From contig JAPDRO010000019.1 of NCBI GenBank assembly GCA_030247885.1, forward strand, positions 62,001-126,000: DNA of 64,000 bases, in the 5' to 3' direction. Under the pieces are notes generated by a model. That model made no database searches, was not told the DNA's origin, and saw only the letters and a program-made list of their open reading frames with translations. Within the stretch, counting starts at the first letter, position 1. Each line of letters opens with the position of its first letter. The position numbers and the translations under genes were made by a program. Of the stretch, positions 22,208 through 57,943 are shown piece by piece. Origin of the DNA: Taxawa tesnikishii (nom. ined.). Its lineage: Eukaryota > Ascomycota > Dothideomycetes > Dothideales.

Positions 22208-25200
22208 CTAGGGTTGCCGTCCGGTAATGTAATCCCTGTTCTCTACCGTGACGCTCTTCGTCTGTGACACCGTTAGCGCTATATTTCAACATGACCCCAG
22301 AGCGCGGGAGAGTACTCACCATATGATTGACCTTGTAGACGCCAATCAACCTACTCGCAAGCTCGAACATATTATTCCGGAGGGAAATAACAACGAATTG
22401 AGCATTCTTGGTGCGCTCCTTGATATAGCTTGCCACAATTGAGACCTGCCACCTGGTTAGTTATAGGCTCATTCAAACCTATCGCACTCTCATCTCTCAA
22501 AACACTCACGTTACGAAAATCCAAAGCAGCATCAATCTCGTCCATGACATAAAGCGGCGTCGGACGATAGTGGTGCAGCGCAAACACAAGCGCCAACGAA
22601 CTCAGCGTCTTCTCACCGCCACTGAGGTTGCTGATGTTCTTCCAGCTCTTCTTGGGCGGCATCACGCTGAACAGAATGCCCTCCGAAAACGGATCTAGGC
22701 TGTCGACGAGCTCGAGCTCGGCGTTCCCGCCCATTGTGATCATCTGGTACATCTCTTTCAAGCGGAGTGAGATGGTCGAGAAGCCCTCCATGAAGCCCTC
22801 GAGACGCAGGCGGCGGAGGTCGTCTAGGTGTTTTTGGCTGCGTCGCGCGCGGCCAGGGATTCCTCGAGATCTGCGGTGCGAGCCTTGTGCTCGTCGACGC
22901 GGCGGCGGTATTCTTGCAGCACTGACAGTTCGACGGCCTGCGAGGTTGACTCTTCGAGCTGGGCGATGGCGGCCTTGAGCGCGTCCTTGGACATGTCCAT
23001 CAGCTCGTCCTTGGTGTATTGGGGCAGCGGCAGCGGCTCGAGTTCTTCGCCCGTGTCGGAGATGTTTTGCACGGCCAGCTTGCTGAGCTTTTCTTCCCAG
23101 TAGCGCAGACGCTTTTGGTTGTCGATGAGGATTTTTGGTTCTCTTCGAGCTTGTTGCGCATCTCGATTTCGACGGCGCGGGTCTCGTTCAGTTCAGCGGT
23201 TTGGGCGTCCAGCTCGGCCTTGAGGGCTTGGAGCTCTTCTTTCTTGGTTTCGAGAGCCTGTCGTGTGGAGTTAGTACGAGGTTCATCTAGTGCATAAAAG
23301 CGTCTGGGCATACCTCCTGTGCCTCTTCGGCTTGTCTCCTGCTGCCCGCCGCGTCCCTGTTCTGCTCCCTCATCTCCTCCTCAACCTGCTCTGCCTCGTC
23401 TTTCACCTTTCCCAACTCCTTTACAGCTTCGGCGTGAGCCTTTTCGTGCTTTGCCTTGATCTTCTCCGCCTTGGCATTTGCTACCTCTGCGGCAGACATC
23501 TCCTCAGTCCGGTTGTCGATCTGCTCCTTCAAGCCATCAACCTTGGCTTTCTGACCTCTGAGCTGCACACCACCGACCTCCATAATCTTGTCTTGGAGAG
23601 CCTTGATCTCCTCTTCAATACCGGCGGTCTCGAAAGCGAGCTTCTCGACCTCCCTCTCCATCTTAGCAATCTCCCTTTCCAGAGTGGAAATGCGGGATTT
23701 GTCTGCTTTGTCCGGCTGCTGCTCGTTGCTGAGCTCCTTGATCCTTCGCTGTGAATCTGCAATGTTGCGCTCGATACTGCCCATCTCCAAGTTCATTTTC
23801 TGGATCTGCGTTTCAAGAACCGGAATCTGGTCATTGAGTGCTTTGAGCCTGGCCTCGCATTCATGCTGTTGCTGTTGAAGCTCGGCACAGGCTTTCTCAA
23901 GCGCATCTCTGTCGACCTCAAGCTCGACGACTTGCTCCTTCGAGGCGTTGGCCACGAGCTTGGAGGACATGGCGCCCTTGGCAATGCGAGTACCACCACC
24001 GGACATCGTACCAGACTTGTCAATGAGCTGCCCGTCGAGGGTGACAACACGCCAGCGTTGAGCGCCGTAAGCAATGCGGTTTGCTTGCTCGAGATCTTTG
24101 GCTACGAGCGTGTTCTGGAGCACACTGTAAAAGGCCGGTCGGAATCTGCCATCCTTCGACTTGACAAGATCGAACAGTCGTGGTACGTTTTCCGGAGTCT
24201 GGATAGCGGAAAGGTCGCGTTTTGGGAGTCGGTCCAGGAGGATGAAGTTGGCGCGGCCCAGGTTGTTCTTACGGAGGTAGTCAATGCACTGCTGACCGAC
24301 CTCGACAGAGTCAACCACCAGGTTGTCAAGCGCGGGACAGGCGGTGGAAATCGCAACATCGTAGCGTTGGTCAATGGTACCGAGGTTGCCGAGGCGGCCG
24401 TGGAAGCCGTCGATTCTGCCAGACTCTTTAAGGCGCATCAGGCCGGTGAGCACGTTGCCCTGAATCTGAGTGGCAGCAAGGCTTGCGCGTGCCTCATCGG
24501 CCTTTTGCCTTGCACCGGACAGTTTCGAGCGCAACACTGGTTCCTTGGATGCAAGCTCTTCGATTTCGAGTTGCACCTGTTGTATTTCGCGTTGCACGGC
24601 TCTGCCTTGCTTCTGGGTCGCTTTGATCTCCACATCCTTCGCGTCTCTGGTCTCCTGAAGGGTGGTGATCTTGGCCTCAATCTCCACAATGGCATTGGCA
24701 CCAGAGTTTTCACGTTCACGGAGAATATCAAGCTCACTCTGTGCGACGGCAATGGCAGACTGCTTCTGGTTTACCTTTGCGTTCCACGGTTCGAGGGTCT
24801 TCTGCTTTGCGGCGATCTGGTCAGAGAGCCCTTGAGTCTTGCCCTTCAGGTTGTCTCTGATCCTTGCAAGCTCCTTCTCCTCAACCTTCATCTCCTCTTC
24901 CAGTTCTGAGATCTGGGCTGAAGTGCGCTCGATGTCATCGTCGGCCTGTTTTGCCAAAGTGCTGGATTCCGAAATACCGTATCTGCTGCTCTCAACAGTC
25001 TTCTCAAGCTTCTTGGCCTTGTTGGTAAGGAACTTCTTCTTCTCCTCGAACTTGACCATCTCCTTGTCGAACTTAGCCATCTGCTTCAACACGCCTTGCG
25101 TGTCCTGTTCCAAGCGCTCAAACTCCTTAGAACCGGCCTTGTACTGCTTTTCGAGGCGTTTGATGTCGTCTTCGTTGCCTCTATGTTTCTCAAGCTCTTC

Positions 25201-26727
25201 ATCAAGTTGTCCTTGGATCTGGCCGATGGCTTCTTCTGTGACCTGGATGTTGTCGCCGCACTCGTCGATGTAAATTTGATACAGCGCTGATTGCTTGGTC
25301 GCCAGTTCGTTCTCGTCCTGGATAAACGCCAGAGCCTTGTTTTTCTTGTCTTCGAGTGCGTTCTTCTCTTTCTCAACATGCTGAACTCTGCTGTTCTTGT
25401 CGGCGCAGACTTCGTTGAGCGTTTCCACTTGAGCTGCTGATTCCTCGATGGGCGTCTTGTATTTCGAAGTACCAATAATGTCCTCCAGATACTCCAGCAG
25501 ACCGTCGTCATGCTCGCCTTGCGCTTTTGGCTTCATCTGGGCGATCGATTCGACCTCGCCCTGCAGGATCAGGAAACGCTTGTGATCCAGGTCTACGCCT
25601 TTACCCTTCAACAGTGTCGTCACCACGGTAAAGTTCGACTCTTTCCCATTGATGTAATATTTGCTGGCATTGTTCTTGAAAGCTCGTCGCGAGATGATAA
25701 GCTGTGAGTCCGGAATGACGTTGTGGCCACCGCCAGGTAGATCCATTACTTCCTGGAAGTGCACTTCGACCTCACAGAACTCCAGATCCGGAAACGCTGC
25801 TGAGTTGTGGATCAGAGCGGATATCTTGCCCTGTCGCATCTTGCTGGCACGGAAACCGAAGACGAAAAGCAAGGAATCAATTACATTGGACTTTCCGGAT
25901 CCGTTGGGCCCGACGACTGAAGAGAAAGAGGCATGGAACGGACCAACTTCTTGCCTGCCCGCATAACTTTTGAAGTTCGTAAGGACCAAGTAGGTGATGG
26001 TCATTCGTGATTTTGGTTCTGCCGGCTCTTGCGAAGCTGGTATACCCTTTGCGCGTGCTCGAATCGCGATATCCATCGGCCTCTCCAACTGTGTGATCTG
26101 AGTGTTGACTTTGTGTATCTCCATCTCTTGCCTGGGTTCTGGTTTGGGTGTCTGTTCGTTGATGGCGGTTTCGGTGATGTCAGCCAACGGGGTGCTGTGT
26201 CGCAATCGCGCCTCCGGGGAAGCAGAAGGTTCTGGTGTAGGAAGCGCGGTGGGTTCTTCCGTTGCGTCTTCAGTTACTGAGACGAGCGAAGCTCTAGGTT
26301 TCCGTGCTGACGGTAGCTCTGTCGCGTCCTCTGTGACGGACACGATCGAAGCTCTGCTTTTACGCGCCGCTCTCACAGACTTTGCGGTTCGTCTTTCTTT
26401 CTTGACTGGCGACTTGGGCTTGGTGGGAGACGCTGGGTCAGCGACACTTTCTGGAGGGCTGAATAACTGCGACGGCTCCACGGATTCGGTCACTCTAGAT
26501 CGCCGTGTCCGGGTAGCCGTTTGTGGTGTGGCCATGCCGTCTGTCGTTTTCCGTCGCGTTGACGTCCGCGTGCTTCGGGCGGGTGCAGGTGTGAATTCTT
26601 CTTCGCTGTCGTCGTTTGCTTTCCGGCTGATGATGGTGTTCTCCTGTTCGTCGTCCGACTCTTCAACGACCACCTTGCGCCGGGCGGCAGCACGCCTCGA
26701 TGGGCGAACCGGCGATTCTGCAGACAT
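22208..26727 (-). CDS. smc4: Condensin subunit SMC4
   Basis: It is the core ATPase of condensin, needed for mitotic chromosome compaction. Exons are 23314-26727, 22510-23257, 22320-22445 and 22208-22261; the first intron carries a perfect TACTAAC branch site. The N-terminal extension of about 240 residues is basic and Ser/Thr-rich and holds a duplicated SVTEDATE segment. The SMC head follows (Walker A GPNGSGKSN, about residue 273), then coiled coil, the hinge (about SGRIDGFHGRLGNLG), a second coiled coil, the signature LSGGEKTL and Walker B YVMDEIDAALD. The protein ends SVTVENRDYITGRQP. YKTPIEESAA is typical of SMC4 as against other SMCs. Exon 2 needs one base added in each of two runs, T5 at 23132-23136 and T5 at 22831-22835 (A on the coding strand), to read NQKILIDNQKRL and AAKKHLDDLRRL. 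Corrected length is 1447 aa, normal for the family; as the gene is essential, errors in the sequence are the sensible explanation. Confidence 0.95.
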
Positions 26728-27517
26728 TGGGCGCTCTTCGAAATGTATCCACGCTGCTGTTGGTTAGTATGGTGGCTTGTCGTGTCGAGTATAACGTTGA
26801 AAGATGTGGGATGCGCCCACAAGATGCGCCCGCGAGTAAACAAAACAAACGTCGGCCCGCACAAACGCCGATCCGAATGTGACTGCCAAGTATCACATGC
26901 TCAGAACGAGCAAGGAGACACTCTACTCTACTCTACTAGTCAATCTCATAGATGTTGGTTCTAAGGTTTTGAGTGGGATTAATTGGGGTCCGACGTAAGC
27001 TTCCGCTACATCATCCAGTCAATTTTGTAGGGTTACTATTCGTTAGAAAAGATGTTGCACATTAATGGAGGGTGCACTAGCGAACGAAAGCGATTGTGCT
27101 TGGCACAAGCGAAAATCACGACGGAGTCTGTATGAGGACACCAAAAGATCCAACTATTACACGTCAAATTAGCTGAGTGGCGCAGAAGAAAGGGGTGAGA
27201 TTGTTGTCTGTAACTCCTGGCAGCAGACGGTCGCCGGTGTGGGAGGGTGACTGCGAGCGTGAGGAAGGTAGTGAGTTGCTTGCTCTGTCGTACGTAAGGT
27301 AAATCTCTCAAGGCAGTGCTGAACCGAGACACAAGAGAAATGCTCACCGTAGGTGTCTGGATGTTTGTCGCTCTGAACATGCTGTGATGCTGCTAGTACT
27401 GCTGCTGCTGGTCATGATGAGACTCGTATTCTGGATCAGCATCGATACTAAATCACATGCTGGGCAAAGAAATTGAAGTATATTTACATTCTATGTTGGT
27501 GATTACTCCAACAATTC
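26728..27517. other. Intergenic region
   Basis: Upstream region of smc4. It includes a 15-base fragment identical to the first 15 bases of the spliced downstream tRNA (27171-27185). No protein gene seen. Confidence 0.5.
27171..27185 (+). other. Truncated 5' copy of initiator tRNA-Met
   Basis: AGCTGAGTGGCGCAG matches the acceptor 5' strand, bases 8-9 and D-stem of the downstream tRNA without its insert; the following bases (AAGAAAGG) diverge. It may be a tRNA-derived fragment or a relic of a duplicated tRNA gene. Confidence 0.5.
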
Positions 27518-27643
27518 AGCTGAGTGGCGTATGTTACTTCCGAATCACATCATGTTATAATCATCCACTAACGCTCAATCAGGCAGCGGAAGAGCGCCGG
27601 GCTCATAACCCGGAGGTCCCTGGATCGAAACCATTCTCAGCTA
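27518..27643 (+). tRNA. Initiator tRNA-Met (CAT) interrupted by a 54-nt mRNA-type insert
   Basis: With 27529-27582 removed, the remaining 72 bases form an initiator tRNA. The acceptor stem AGCTGAG/CTCAGCT is perfect with A1-T72, the anticodon stem CCGGG/CCCGG has the three initiator G-C pairs, the loop is CTCATAA (anticodon 27604-27606), and the T loop is ATCGAAA with A54 and A60. The B box GGATCGAAACC (27622-27632) is intact and a T5 Pol III terminator follows. The insert starts GTATGT, has CTAAC 11 bases before its CAG end, and lies between bases 11 and 12, inside the A box; it is not at the canonical 37/38 site. Splicing would restore TGGC-GCAGCGG. The T stem has two mispairs and the D stem one, so the copy could be decaying. 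Confidence 0.75.
27529..27582 (+). other. Spliceosomal-type intron-like insert in tRNA-iMet
   Basis: It is 54 nt, with donor GTATGT, branch CTAAC (27568-27572) and acceptor ATCAG. These match the protein-gene introns of this window in length and signals. Confidence 0.65.
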
Positions 27644-27654
27644 TGGAGTGATAC

Positions 27655-27659
27655 TTTTT
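27655..27659 (+). terminator. Pol III T5 terminator
   Basis: A run of five T residues starting 12 bases after the discriminator base of the tRNA. Confidence 0.7.
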
Positions 27660-27919: not shown

Positions 27920-28959
27920 ATGAGTATTCCGGACTTCAAGAACATATTCTACCAATGCTTCTATATCCCTAAGCCAACCCTAACCGAGGAGAACCTGCCG
28001 GATCAGAGCGGCAGGGTATTCATCGTCGTAAGTCGAGCCACTAGCCATTATCAGTCTCTCAACACTCATGACCCATGTTCAGACTGGTGGTTACGCGGGC
28101 GTCGGCCTGGAGCTCTCACGCATACTCTACCAGCGCAACGGCACCGTGTATATCGCGGGACGCTCCGAAGCCAAGGGCGCGGCCGCCATCTCGTCCATCA
28201 AGTCGAAATGCCCCTCATCGGACGGCCGTCTGGAGTTCCTCCACCTGGACCTGGCCGACCTGGCCACGATCAAGGCGTCAGCGGAGGCCTTCCTGGCGCG
28301 CGAGCGCAGACTCGACGTCCTGACCAACAACGCCGGCGTCATGGTGCCGCCCTCGGGCAGCAGAACCGCACAGGGCCACGAGCTCCAGATCGGCACAAAC
28401 TGCCTCGGCCCTTACCTCTTCACCCGCCTGCTCCTCCCCGTGCTCCAACGGACCGCTGCGGCCGCGCCACCGGGCTCGGTGAGGGTGACGTGGGCGGCCT
28501 CGCTCGCCACGGAGGTCTCGACCGCGGGGGCGCGTCGTTCGACGAAAGGGCGAGCCCGTGGTGCACGGGACCAAGATGGCCAACTACGCGCAGTCGAAAG
28601 CCGGCAACGTGCTCCTGGCGCACGAGTTCCTGCAGCGCTACGGCGGGGGCGGGGGCGGGCACGCCGGCATCGTGTCCAACGCCTGGAACCCCGGGAACTT
28701 GGTTTCGGAGCTGCAGCGCCATCAGTCGTGGTACGAGGCCGTCTTCGTCAACTGGCTGAGGTATCCGAGCGTGTTGGGCGCTTATACCGAGCTCTTCGCC
28801 GGCTGGGCCGACGAGGCGGGCAAGGAGGAGAATAAGGGAAAGTATGTGCTTCCGTGGGGACGGTTTGGACCCGTCAGAGCGGACTTGGACAAGGGTGCGA
28901 ATGGCAAGTCTGTCATGTTTTGGGAGTGGTGCGAGAGGGAGACGGCGTCATATGCTTAG
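27920..28959 (+). CDS. Short-chain dehydrogenase/reductase (SDR)
   Basis: It is an NAD(P)-dependent oxidoreductase of unknown substrate. Exons 27920-28027 and 28083-28959 are joined over a 55-nt intron that falls just before the cofactor motif TGGYAGVG. Further SDR landmarks are DLADLATIKA, the NNAG motif, and the catalytic YAQSK with an upstream serine in TWAAS. The C-terminal part (NAWNPGNLVSEL) is also typical. Two one-base gaps break the frame: a G5 run (28526-28530) and an A3 run (28545-28547). Adding one base to each gives GGASFDEKGEPVVHGTKMA, makes the length a multiple of three, and yields 328 aa. The coding sequence is markedly GC-rich. The fold resembles retinol-dehydrogenase-like SDRs, but the reaction cannot be told. 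Confidence 0.85.
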
Positions 28960-37175: not shown

Positions 37176-37591
37176 ATGTCTTTCCAGGACCCAAAGAAGA
37201 CCGCCCAGGGCGAGGCCCCAAAGATCCACAAGATCCGCATCACTCTGACCTCCCGCAAGGTGCAGTCGCTTGAGAAGGTCTGCACCGAGCTCATCGAGCG
37301 TGCCAAGAGCAAGGACCTCCGCGTCAAGGGCCCAGTCCGCCTCCCAACCAAGAACCTCAAGATCACCACCCGTAAGACCCCTTGCGGTGAGGGTTCCAAG
37401 ACCTGGGACAAGTACGAGATGCGCATCCACAAGGTAAGTAGGAGACGCAAACTGGAGAGAGGGTAACCAGAACAGGGGCTGACAATCATGTGAAGCGCCT
37501 GATCGACCTGAACGCCCCTACCGAGGTCGTTAAGCAGATCATCATCAACATCGAGGCTGGTGTTGAGGTTGAGGTTACCATTGCCGCCTAA
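37176..37591 (+). CDS. rps20: 40S ribosomal protein S20 (uS10)
   Basis: It encodes small-subunit protein uS10, 117 aa. Exons 37176-37433 and 37496-37591 are joined over a 62-nt intron after MRIHK. The sequence is family-like throughout: [60 protein letters not shown], then [20 protein letters not shown]. Codon use is strongly C-ending (AAG, ATC, GTC), as expected for a highly expressed gene. Confidence 0.97.
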
Positions 37592-38088: not shown

Positions 38089-39404
38089 CTACTTGTAGAA
38101 ATCAAACTTGTCCGCCTCTTGCGTACCCTTGACTTGGCTGGTGTACGCATCTTCCAGATCTTGCTGGATGATGTTGTACCTGTTCTTCCTGACGGCCCTG
38201 AGACCGGCTTCTTGCATGATGGCGGCAATGACGGCACCGGAAAGAGGGTCGTTCCGGACGATCAAGCTGTCAAGGTCTACCTCGGGCGCCATGCTCATCT
38301 TGCTGGCGATGGTGGAGAAAATCAATCTCCGCTCTCTCCTGTCGCGCAAGTTTGGGAACTCAATCTTCCTGTCCAAACGTCCGGGACGGAGGAGCGCGGG
38401 GTCCAAAGTGTCGGCGCGGTTGGTTGCCATGATGACCTTCACGTTGCTAGTCTGGTCGAATCCGTCCATTTGGTTCAGTAACTCGAGCAGGATACGCTGA
38501 ACCTCTCTGTCGGCACCGGTTTGGGCGTCGAAACGCTTCGTAGCGATTGCATCGATCTCGTCAATGAAGATGATGGACGGGCTGTTCTCGCGTGCCATAC
38601 GGAACACATCGCGCACCATACGTGGACCCTCACCGAGATACTTCTGCACAAATTCCGATCCGACAACGCGGATGAAGGAGGCAGTGGTGCTGTTGGCGAC
38701 GGCCTTGACGAGCATGGTCTTGCCCGTTCCAGGCGGACCGTAGAGAAGGACACCACGGGGTGGGTCGATACCAATCTGCCGGTACAGGTCAAAGTGTGTA
38801 AGTGGCAGCTCAACGGCTTCGCGAATCTCCTGCTTCTGCATGTCCAGACCTCCGATATCCGCGTATGACACGTCCGGCTTCTCATCCGCACCGAGCATGG
38901 CAATGGACGAATCTGCTTCCGGAGGTAAAATATCGACAAGGGCATTGGAATGGCGGTGCAGGGCGACAGAGGAGGAGGGCTTGAGGAGTTCGCGGTCCAG
39001 AGTGGAGAGAATGCGGACAACGTAGTTACTACCCGTAGACGATTGTACGATTCCAGTGCTGTACGAACATTAGTATGTGCAGAACCACGCAATACCCGCG
39101 AACCTTACTTCTGGTCGATGGCCTCCATGAACTGTCCGATGACGAGCGGAACACTCTGTATCCTCTTGATTTCCTCCTGCGCTCGAACGAGCTCGCGCTT
39201 GAGGCTCCTCTGCTCATCCTTGATGTATTCCTCCTGCAGTTTGATGTACTCCAGTTGTCGCTGGAGCTTCTTAAATGTCGAGTACTGGTCATCTGAATCT
39301 GGTCCGACGCCTTCCAGCGATTCGATGTTTGGTATCGATGAAGGGAGCTGCTTCTTGTGTGGAGGTGTGGTGTTGATCGGGTTTTCGACCGCTGCGTCCG
39401 CCAT
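38089..39404 (-). CDS. rpt3: 26S proteasome regulatory ATPase subunit Rpt3 (6B)
   Basis: It is one of six AAA ATPases in the proteasome base that unfold substrates. Exons 39109-39404 and 38089-39058 give 421 aa in frame over a 50-nt intron. A coiled-coil N-terminal segment ([20 protein letters not shown]) leads to the OB region ([19 protein letters not shown]). Then comes the AAA domain: Walker A GPPGTGKT at about residue 203, Walker [11 protein letters not shown], sensor 1 VIMATNRAD and arginine finger [13 protein letters not shown]. It ends KFDFYK, with the C-terminal HbYX-like aromatic motif used to dock on the 20S core. It is highly conserved, with no frame problem. Confidence 0.97.
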
Positions 39405-56164: not shown

Positions 56165-57943
56165 ATGGCAACCAAGACTGCGGGTGGTAACGCCGCCTTC
56201 CACAACTTCCACAACGACTACGCCCACATCGCCGACCCCAACGAGCGCCGCCGCCTTGCTCTTGCTGAGATTGACAAGGCTCCCTTCGGCTGGTATCATA
56301 TCCGTGCCATCATCGTCGCTGGTATTGGTTTCTTCACGGACTCCTACGATATCTTCGCCATCGGTCTGGTCACGACTATGTTGGGTGTCGTCTACTGGCA
56401 GGACGCCTCAGGCAAGGCCAAGGGTGCTATCCCTTCCAACTCCGACACTGCCATCAAGGTCGCAACCTCCGGCGGTACCGTCATCGGTCAAGTCGGTTTC
56501 GGATGGCTCGCTGATATGGTCGGTCGCAAGAGAATGTACGGTCTTGAACTGATCTTGATCATCTTCGCAACTCTCGCCCAGGCTCTCTCTTCGGACTCTC
56601 CCAGCATCTCCATCGTCGGTGTCATCATCTTCTGGCGTGTGATTATGGGTATTGGTATCGGTGGAGATTACCCTCTGTCCTCCATTATCACCTCTGAGTT
56701 CGCTACCACCAAGTGGCGTGGTGCCATGATGGGATCCGTCTTCGCTATGCAGGGTCTCGGACAGTTCGGTGCCGGTATCATCTCCTCATTGTCACCGCCG
56801 GCTTCAAAGAGTCCCTTCTCTCCGCTAAGAGCTACAGCACCTGCGGTGGTGTCTGCGGTATTGCCGTTGACAAGATGTGGCGTGTGGTTATCGGTTTCGG
56901 TGCCGTTCCTGCCTGCATTGCCCTCTACTACCGTCTCACCATCCCTGAAACTCCTCGTTACACCTTCGATGTCGCCCGCGACGTTGTCCAGGCTGGCTCC
57001 GATACCAAGGCTTACCTTACCGGCCAATCTCAGGGTATCCCAGATGAGATCACTCGCGTTCAGACCATGCGTGAGTCTGCTCCAGCTCTCGACCCACCCA
57101 AGGCTTCCTTCAGTGACTTCTGCCGCCACTACGGCCAGTGGAAGCATGGCAAGGTCCTTCTCGGTACTGCCGGTTCCTGGTTCTTCCTCGATGTCGCTTT
57201 CTACGGTTTGGGTCTCAACAACGCTGTCATCCTGAGACAGATTGGCTACGCGACCGGCAAGAACGTCTACGAGAACTTCTATAACCTCTCCGTCGGTAAC
57301 CTCATCCTTGTCTGCGCTGGTGCCATTCCAGGTTACTGGGTCACTGTTGCGACTGTTGACACCGTCGGTCGTAAGCCAATCCAGCTTATGGGCTTCACCA
57401 TCCTCACTGTCCTCTTCTGCATCATCGGTTTCGGCTACCACGCGATCGGCGAGAAGGGTCTTTTGCCTGCTACGTTCTCGCCCAGTTCTTCTTCAACTTC
57501 GGTAAGTCATCTTCATATCAAGCGGTCTATGAACATTTCTTCTAACAAACCTCGCAGGCCCCAACGCTACAACCTTCATCGTTCCCGGCGAGTGCTTCCC
57601 AACTCGCTACAGGTCTACCTCCCACGGCCTCTCCGCCGCCTCTGGTAAGGTCGGTGCTATCATAGCCCAGGTGCTCATTGGACCCCTCCGCGTCCGCGGT
57701 GCGACTGCCACCAACGCCTCCCCCTGGCTCAACCACGTCATGCAGATCTACGCCCTCTTCATGTTCCTTGGTATCTTCACTACCCTTCTGATCCCAGAGA
57801 CCAAGCGCAAAACTCTCGAGGAGCTCGCTGGCGAGGTCCCGGGCACTCCAAACTACGACCCCGCTACTGCTGGTCACCTCCACCGCAAGGACTCTGACTC
57901 TCCTTCCGGCGAGCAGGCCAACCTTGGCGAGAAGATGGTTTAA
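56165..57943 (+). CDS. High-affinity phosphate transporter, PHO84 type
   Basis: It is a plasma-membrane proton/phosphate symporter of the MFS. Exons 56165-57501 and 57558-57943 are joined over a 56-nt intron. Typical segments are DKAPFGWYHIRAIIVAGIGF, FFTDSYDIFAIGLVTTMLG, the loop GWLADMVGRKRMYG, the phosphate-porter signature GIGIGGDYPLSSIITSEFA, and IPETPRYTFDVARDV. TVDTVGRKPIQLMG and NATTFIVPGECFPTRYRST follow in the C half. Two one-base gaps break the frame: CC at 56784-56785 (GIISLIVTAGF restored) and T4 at 57461-57464 (GLFACYVLAQFFFNFG restored). Corrected, it is 574 aa, the family length. Both gaps are in homopolymer runs and match slips elsewhere in the window. Confidence 0.92.

Follow-up and report, generated by a model that had tools for sequence, protein, structure and literature searches.

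Spliceosomal-type introns in nuclear tRNA genes of Taxawa tesnikishii, including the three initiator tRNA genes found in its assembly

Introduction

Can an intron of the mRNA type reside in a nuclear tRNA gene, and would the spliceosome remove it there? The question is raised by an initiator tRNA-Met (iMet) gene of the ascomycete Taxawa tesnikishii that is interrupted in its D arm by 54 nt resembling the mRNA introns of its surroundings. Usually the work is divided, with the spliceosome serving Pol II transcripts while an endonuclease and a ligase serve tRNAs, and canonical eukaryotic tRNA introns sit at position 37/38. The stretch of DNA analysed here (the window) comprises 64,000 nt, C11:62001-126000 of the genome (assembly GCA_030247885.1, contig JAPDRO010000019.1), and the whole assembly (29,367,862 bases in 34 contigs) was searched by DNA query. 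Judging from these sequences, the insert is very likely a U2-type spliceosomal intron in a nuclear Pol III-type tRNA gene, and one of at least 12 such introns in ten genes.

Anatomy of the split initiator gene

The features of the gene are given below; exon 1, both splice sites, the B box and the T run were read directly from the sequence.

27479..27484, plus strand: TATATT, a TATA-like hexamer 39-34 nt upstream of the gene
27518..27528, plus strand: iMet exon 1, tRNA positions 1-11, the same as exon 1 of the copy on contig C1
27525..27535, plus strand: A box in its genomic form, made up of exonic TGGC and intronic GTATGTT, 9/11 consensus positions
27529..27582, plus strand: 54-nt spliceosomal-type intron at tRNA position 11/12 (GTATGT...CTAAC...CAG), at the site of the first intron of the C1 copy
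27529..27534, plus strand: 5' splice site GTATGT (the SMC4 mRNA intron starts GTATGC)
27568..27572, plus strand: branch-site motif CTAAC, presumed branch A at 27571, 11 nt before the intron end
27580..27582, plus strand: 3' splice site CAG
27583..27643, plus strand: iMet exon 2, tRNA positions 12-73, anticodon CAT, with the three mispairs given below
27622..27632, plus strand: B box GGATCGAAACC
27655..27659, plus strand: T5, a Pol III-type terminator

The insert interrupts the D stem. Joining the exons yields a 72-nt tRNA with a full acceptor stem (7/7), A1-T72, three G-C pairs in the anticodon stem (G29-G31 with C39-C41), the anticodon CAT, A54 and A60. These are the marks of a cytosolic initiator tRNA, namely CAT, A1-U72, three anticodon-stem G-C pairs, A54 and A60. 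The coordinates of the exons and insert in the initial annotation were exact, and the rest of its anatomy, down to the B box and the T5, was reproduced. The three stem mispairs that it reported hold up when the fixed tRNA numbering is applied: G12/A23 disrupts the D stem, and C49/T65 together with C50/T64 leave the T stem (CCTGG/CCATT) with 3/5 pairs. Scripted values for the D and anticodon stems of this copy came from a shifted register and were left out in favour of the fixed positions.

The joined gene is called tRNA-Met(cat) by ARAGORN, which makes no call by default on the unspliced genomic form and, when relaxed (-ps80), proposes a different, misfolded tRNA-Met. Neither ARAGORN nor Rfam gives any match in the raw window. 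No Rfam family exceeds its threshold there, and hence no group I or group II catalytic core was found at this copy; 53-59 nt, the length range of all inserts described below, is below the size that such a core needs. The gene lies between a minus-strand SMC4-like gene (ORF 23287-26727, with SMC domains by Pfam) and a plus-strand ORF starting at 27920 whose translation, read by eye, resembles a short-chain dehydrogenase. Elsewhere in the window, a sugar/phosphate-permease-like gene (56165-57648) is spread over two overlapping frames, as from a 1-nt frameshift near 56700.

Split tRNA genes across the assembly

The whole-genome DNA search found two iMet genes besides the window copy, both of which are split.

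C29:579331-579461: iMet, one 59-nt insert at 23/24 (GTATGT...CTAAC...CAG)
C1:570375-570553, minus strand: iMet, a 53-nt insert at 11/12 and a 54-nt insert at 23/24

The initiator identity elements are present in all three copies. Every cloverleaf stem is paired in the C1 and C29 genes, as is not the case in the window copy, and their mature sequences agree at 71 of 72 positions, position 16 being specific to the copy, against 68 of 72 for the window copy and C1. Intact intronless iMet genes elsewhere had been named beforehand as a finding that would speak against the intron, and none was found in the 29.4-Mb assembly: an iMet-specific pattern occurs at three places genome-wide, each of them a split gene, while the reversed control pattern occurs at none. 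The iMet supply of the cell probably comes, as far as these copies suggest, from C1 and C29. An unassembled intron-free iMet gene is possible, since the census described below is incomplete and the assembly search with an SSU bait found no rDNA.

Seven further nuclear tRNA genes carry inserts of the same type (sites in our own numbering).

C29:62913-63051: Arg-CCT, insert at 16/18 plus a canonical intron
C29:198778-198938, minus strand: Leu-CAG, insert at 15/16
C31:667058-667222: Leu-CAA, insert at 15/16, with GC-AG ends
C3:912800-912941, minus strand: Ala-TGC, insert at 19/20 plus a canonical intron
C32:968839-968979: Ala-TGC, insert at 19/20 plus a canonical intron
C33:554922-555049: Ile-AAT, insert at 18/19
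C31:785381-785588, minus strand: Leu-AAG (L140), inserts at 12/13 and in the variable arm, plus a canonical intron

Beyond the insert first noticed, therefore, 11 more occur in nine other genes, which supports the reading of the window gene as split by an mRNA-type intron. Altogether, of the 74 nuclear tRNA genes counted, ten hold 12 inserts, distributed over seven contigs (C1, C3, C11, C29, C31, C32 and C33) and affecting iMet three times, Ala-TGC twice, and Leu-CAG, Leu-CAA, Leu-AAG, Ile-AAT and Arg-CCT once each. The eight sites are 11/12, 12/13, 15/16, 16/18, 18/19, 19/20, 23/24 and one in the variable arm; seven of them are in the D arm, and none is the canonical 37/38. The Leu-AAG gene L140 combines two spliceosomal-type introns with a canonical one, three introns in all. 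Split genes were sought with B-box-plus-terminator patterns, DNA queries and fetched stretches; each parse was checked as contiguous genomic sequence, and gene ends were computed from match positions.

The 64 insert-free genes in the count passed a script filter and were called by ARAGORN. The script gave a 65th (L126), which has no ARAGORN call and is probably a chance match. At least four plausible insert-free genes (L057, L087, L114 and L133) failed the filter and stand outside the count, so that 10 of 74 falls short of a complete census; moreover, the census is non-random, because insert-bearing families were followed up, and fungal baits for eight families (Phe, Lys, Tyr, Trp, Gly, Ala, Pro and Val) gave one Lys gene only, leaving these families under-sampled. 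That gene, L133 (C7:558954-), has no TTTT within 25 nt, and pattern searches can therefore overlook genes; its T stem pairs only with a six-nt T loop and its T run lies far downstream, an oddity that may reflect an indel or an odd gene. A Ser-type 3' half (L085/L128, C11:419810-) has a B box and a T run and no 5' half within about 400 nt, and was left uncounted. Eleven candidates with a poor T stem or no acceptor partner were set aside as chance matches (L058, L069, L079, L081, L084, L096, L116, L117, L118, L123 and L124), and a Cys identity for L066/L132 was ruled out by TGC in the loop and G3-U70, which make it Ala-TGC, as ARAGORN also has it. On contigs C25, C26 and C28 lie mitochondrial-type tRNAs of two distinct sets; C25 also holds a nad5 fragment whose best match is the ND5 chain of PDB 7zm7, presumably that of Chaetomium thermophilum, and the assembly may contain two mitochondrial genomes.

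Automated annotation copes poorly with the split genes. With introns of up to 100 nt allowed, ARAGORN overlooked six of the ten unspliced forms and gave the other four a wrong name; after removal of the inserts, it still mislabelled two of ten (Leu-CAA as SeC, Leu-AAG as Leu-taa); several of its isotype names are unreliable because of introns. A genome-wide search with RF00005 had no insert-bearing gene among its 63 scored candidates (of 926). Standard tRNA finders can thus overlook or misname such genes.

Splice signals and controls

A joint test was applied to all inserts: a GT or GC start, G at +5, a YAG end, and YTRAY with its branch A 6-20 nt from the end. All 12 pass. Eleven start with GT and one with GC, every one has G at +5 and YAG at its 3' end, and each contains a CTRAY-type branch site whose branch A is 10-13 nt from the 3' end, compared with 11-13 nt in mRNA introns of the window (n=3) and 11-12 nt in U6 introns (n=3). 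Their lengths of 53-59 nt may likewise be set against 50-62 nt (mRNA, n=3) and 51-56 nt (U6, n=3). To place the mRNA introns, we followed the reading frames of conserved proteins by eye.

39059-39108, minus strand: RPT3 mRNA intron, passes the joint test
23258-23313, minus strand: SMC4 mRNA intron, passes the joint test
37434-37495: S20 mRNA intron, fails solely at the Y of YAG (ends AAG)

With two of these three passing the same test, the likeness to mRNA introns of the window claimed for the first insert holds. Only 3 of 24,000 mononucleotide-shuffled inserts pass. Canonical anticodon-loop introns as placed by ARAGORN, which are abundant in this genome (59 of the 64 insert-free genes, a share that is unusually high for fungal genomes), differ from the inserts in position, in length (2-40 nt by ARAGORN) and in signals, none of the 59 passing in any register within 4 nt and three having GT...AG in some register. 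The mRNA-type inserts in tRNA genes are real and far beyond chance.

Among the 47 scored candidates (of 1,430) for U6, which is a Pol III gene in known fungi, three genes were found, all split after about 60 nt by introns that pass the joint test (3/3).

C19:390845-, C23:1835706- and C33:874318-: U6 genes L129-L131, each with an mRNA-type intron of 51-56 nt

The 5S rRNA genes are dispersed, with 47 scored matches (of 1,720 candidates; 46 of the 47 above the cut-off) on many contigs. Over model positions 1-120, none of these 47 has an intron-sized insertion, so mRNA-type introns are not general to all Pol III genes.

Transcription of the split genes

Because the insert splits the A box of the window gene, the initial annotation foresaw a problem for transcription. 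The split itself is there, but it is less serious than was thought: exon 1 followed by the 5' splice site keeps 9 of 11 positions of the consensus TRGYNNANNGG. Across the ten split genes the genomic A box scores 9-11 of 11, since the GT... that follows the exon restores part of it; seven have an A box split by an intron, with 9 or 10 of 11 positions left, and in iMet C29 and both Ala genes it is whole.

The most serious rival reading accepts the introns as spliceosomal and proposes that at least some of the genes are transcribed by Pol II from a CACGTG promoter, with the transcript then trimmed to a tRNA. The seven split A boxes would suit it, and so would CACGTG itself, which occurs in the 70 nt upstream of three of the ten split genes (starting 16-26 nt upstream in iMet C1, Leu-CAG on C29 and Leu-CAA on C31) and of 1 of 65 others, a post hoc comparison (Fisher P = 0.007) whose 65 genes include the doubtful L126. 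However, a B box is found in all ten split genes, and all ten have a T run no more than 15 nt from the 3' end, a count that is partly circular because several were found by a TTTT pattern. TTTT is absent from all 12 introns, which, at an expectation of 2.0 (P = 0.09), is not significant. The three whole A boxes also speak against Pol II, as do TATA-like hexamers within 80 nt upstream in 3 of the 10 split genes versus 27 of the 65 others, and a Pol III transcript with an mRNA-type intron already exists in the U6 of Schizosaccharomyces pombe, as described in the accessible part of PMC10484740. We regard this reading as unlikely but worth keeping in mind: on the sequence signals Pol III is the likelier polymerase, with Pol II perhaps serving some genes.

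Working genes or dead copies

It could also be that the split genes are dead, introns having struck redundant, unused tRNA genes (e.g. by reverse splicing). The window copy, with its three mispairs, invites this suspicion, and for that copy the suspicion voiced at the start is probably right: three of its 4 differences from C1 (of 72 positions) break stem pairs, and with good splice signals and damaged D and T stems it is probably a third copy in decay. Insert-free paralogues exist for Leu-CAG, Leu-CAA, Leu-AAG and Ile, and the split genes of these four could in principle be dispensable. The same does not hold for iMet, which lacks an insert-free copy in the assembly, nor for both Ala-TGC genes and the sole Arg-CCT gene found, all of which are split.

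The stems point the same way. After removal of the inserts, the acceptor stem pairs fully (7/7) in ten of ten genes and the T stem (5/5) in nine, the exception being the window copy. Among the nine non-window genes, eight have a complete D stem (4/4), Leu-AAG having 3/4 (G13/A22), and eight a complete anticodon stem (5/5), Leu-CAA having 4/5; the mispaired letters of Leu-AAG and Leu-CAA are found in their insert-free paralogues L083 and L082 as well. The paralogues also fix the exon boundaries independently of the splice signals, since the joined Leu genes match them (CAG with L051/L052, CAA with L082, AAG with L083/L092) and the Ile gene minus its insert matches the intronless Ile gene of C34 at every one of 74 nt.

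Exons are kept where introns have diverged. The 23/24 introns of iMet C1 and C29 agree in 33 of 59 aligned columns. Core identity between introns at the same site is 0.56 (iMet 11/12), 0.58 (iMet 23/24), 0.52 (Ala) and 0.42 (Leu-CAG/Leu-CAA), and shuffled introns give means of 0.38-0.44 and maxima of 0.56-0.67, so that there appears to be a weak residual likeness, within the shuffle range, in three pairs and none in Leu-CAG/Leu-CAA. The mature Ala-TGC tRNAs differ at two positions, which form a compensatory acceptor pair (G7-C66 on C3, A7-T66 on C32) with its halves on opposite sides of the intron; the remaining differences lie within the canonical intron. Conserved exons with diverged introns are, on sequence grounds, the pattern of working genes whose introns are spliced, and the pattern argues for iMet C1 and C29 and for Ala rather than for the window copy. 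With the splice signals also intact in all 12 inserts, we consider general death of the split genes improbable to a high degree.

Relation to known introns

The open-access text of PubMed Central, which covers few subscription papers or preprints, yielded, among the papers listed, no report of a spliceosomal intron in a nuclear tRNA gene, and none appears in the accessible parts of PMC3978253, PMC5499181, PMC10484740, PMC11782384, PMC4090602, PMC8527467 and PMC8450103; the novelty supposed for the window gene stands to that extent. The last of these, the tRNAscan-SE 2.0 paper, gives one intron as the limit for eukaryotic tRNA genes in the part available (PMC8450103). As far as the accessible literature goes, the nearest precedents are U6 introns and lichen rDNA introns, followed by the bulge-helix-bulge (BHB)-type tRNA introns of a red alga and the inserts of nucleomorphs. 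U6 snRNA genes of S. pombe and others have mRNA-type introns (PMC10484740). There too, a short gene for a structured RNA is interrupted by an intron of the spliceosomal type, as are the three U6 genes found in this genome. The difference is that U6 itself belongs to the spliceosome, and reverse splicing close to the catalytic nucleotides is the proposed source of its intron, whereas tRNAs stand outside the spliceosome. In lichen fungi, the passages at hand describe ectopic short spliceosomal introns in rDNA, one of them 57 bp, and yeast excised such an intron from its rRNA (PMC8527467); the likeness is that of short spliceosomal introns in a fungal non-mRNA gene, but the host there is a Pol I rRNA rather than a tRNA with an internal promoter.

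Nuclear tRNAs of Cyanidioschyzon merolae and nucleomorph tRNAs have ectopic introns whose positions include the D arm or D loop, and a single gene may hold more than one, according to the available portions of PMC3978253 and PMC4090602. By analogy, the inserts of T. tesnikishii could be functional ectopic introns cut by the tRNA splicing endonuclease at a BHB. The algal introns are BHB-dependent, the Guillardia inserts measure 3-24 nt with their removal given as unknown, and the same portions describe no GT-AG or branch-site anatomy for either, unlike the inserts found here (PMC3978253, PMC4090602). Endonuclease cleavage would leave unexplained the GT/GC-YAG ends, the branch site at a fixed distance and the mRNA-intron length of all 12, and we give it very little credence. 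A BHB score found the full motif at none of the 12 junctions, and likewise at neither of two canonical-intron positive controls. An artefact of assembly or contamination, to which the two mitochondrial-type tRNA sets (a possible sign of a mixed assembly) and the two-frame permease-like gene (a possible indel error) might point, is next to impossible to reconcile with 12 inserts on seven contigs, all with intact signals and correct joins, nor does sequencing error produce introns of 53-59 nt.

Implications

Under the preferred reading, that of U2-type spliceosomal introns in Pol III-type genes, Pol III would transcribe from the B box and a whole or partly regenerated A box, sometimes with an upstream TATA-like element, and would stop at the T run. 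GTATGT and CTAAC in the pre-tRNA would be recognised by U1 and U2, and the spliceosome would join the D-arm exons, with the cloverleaf folding afterwards. RNase P and RNase Z would finish the tRNA, together with the tRNA splicing endonuclease where a canonical intron is present. Two observations lead us to infer the splicing step: no iMet gene free of introns was found in the assembly, and exons are conserved.

If so, the spliceosome would be obligatory for every initiator tRNA, hence for translation initiation, while acting on Pol III transcripts, and Leu-AAG would be processed by two unrelated machines; we think this somewhat bolder claim likely, with less assurance than the identity of the introns. 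The split genes make it testable whether the spliceosome can act on Pol III transcripts beyond U6, whether spliceosomal activity can become limiting for translation initiation, and by what route spliceosomal introns enter non-mRNA genes. Taken at face value, the sequences suggest that in Taxawa tesnikishii the spliceosome has turned into a tRNA-processing machine.
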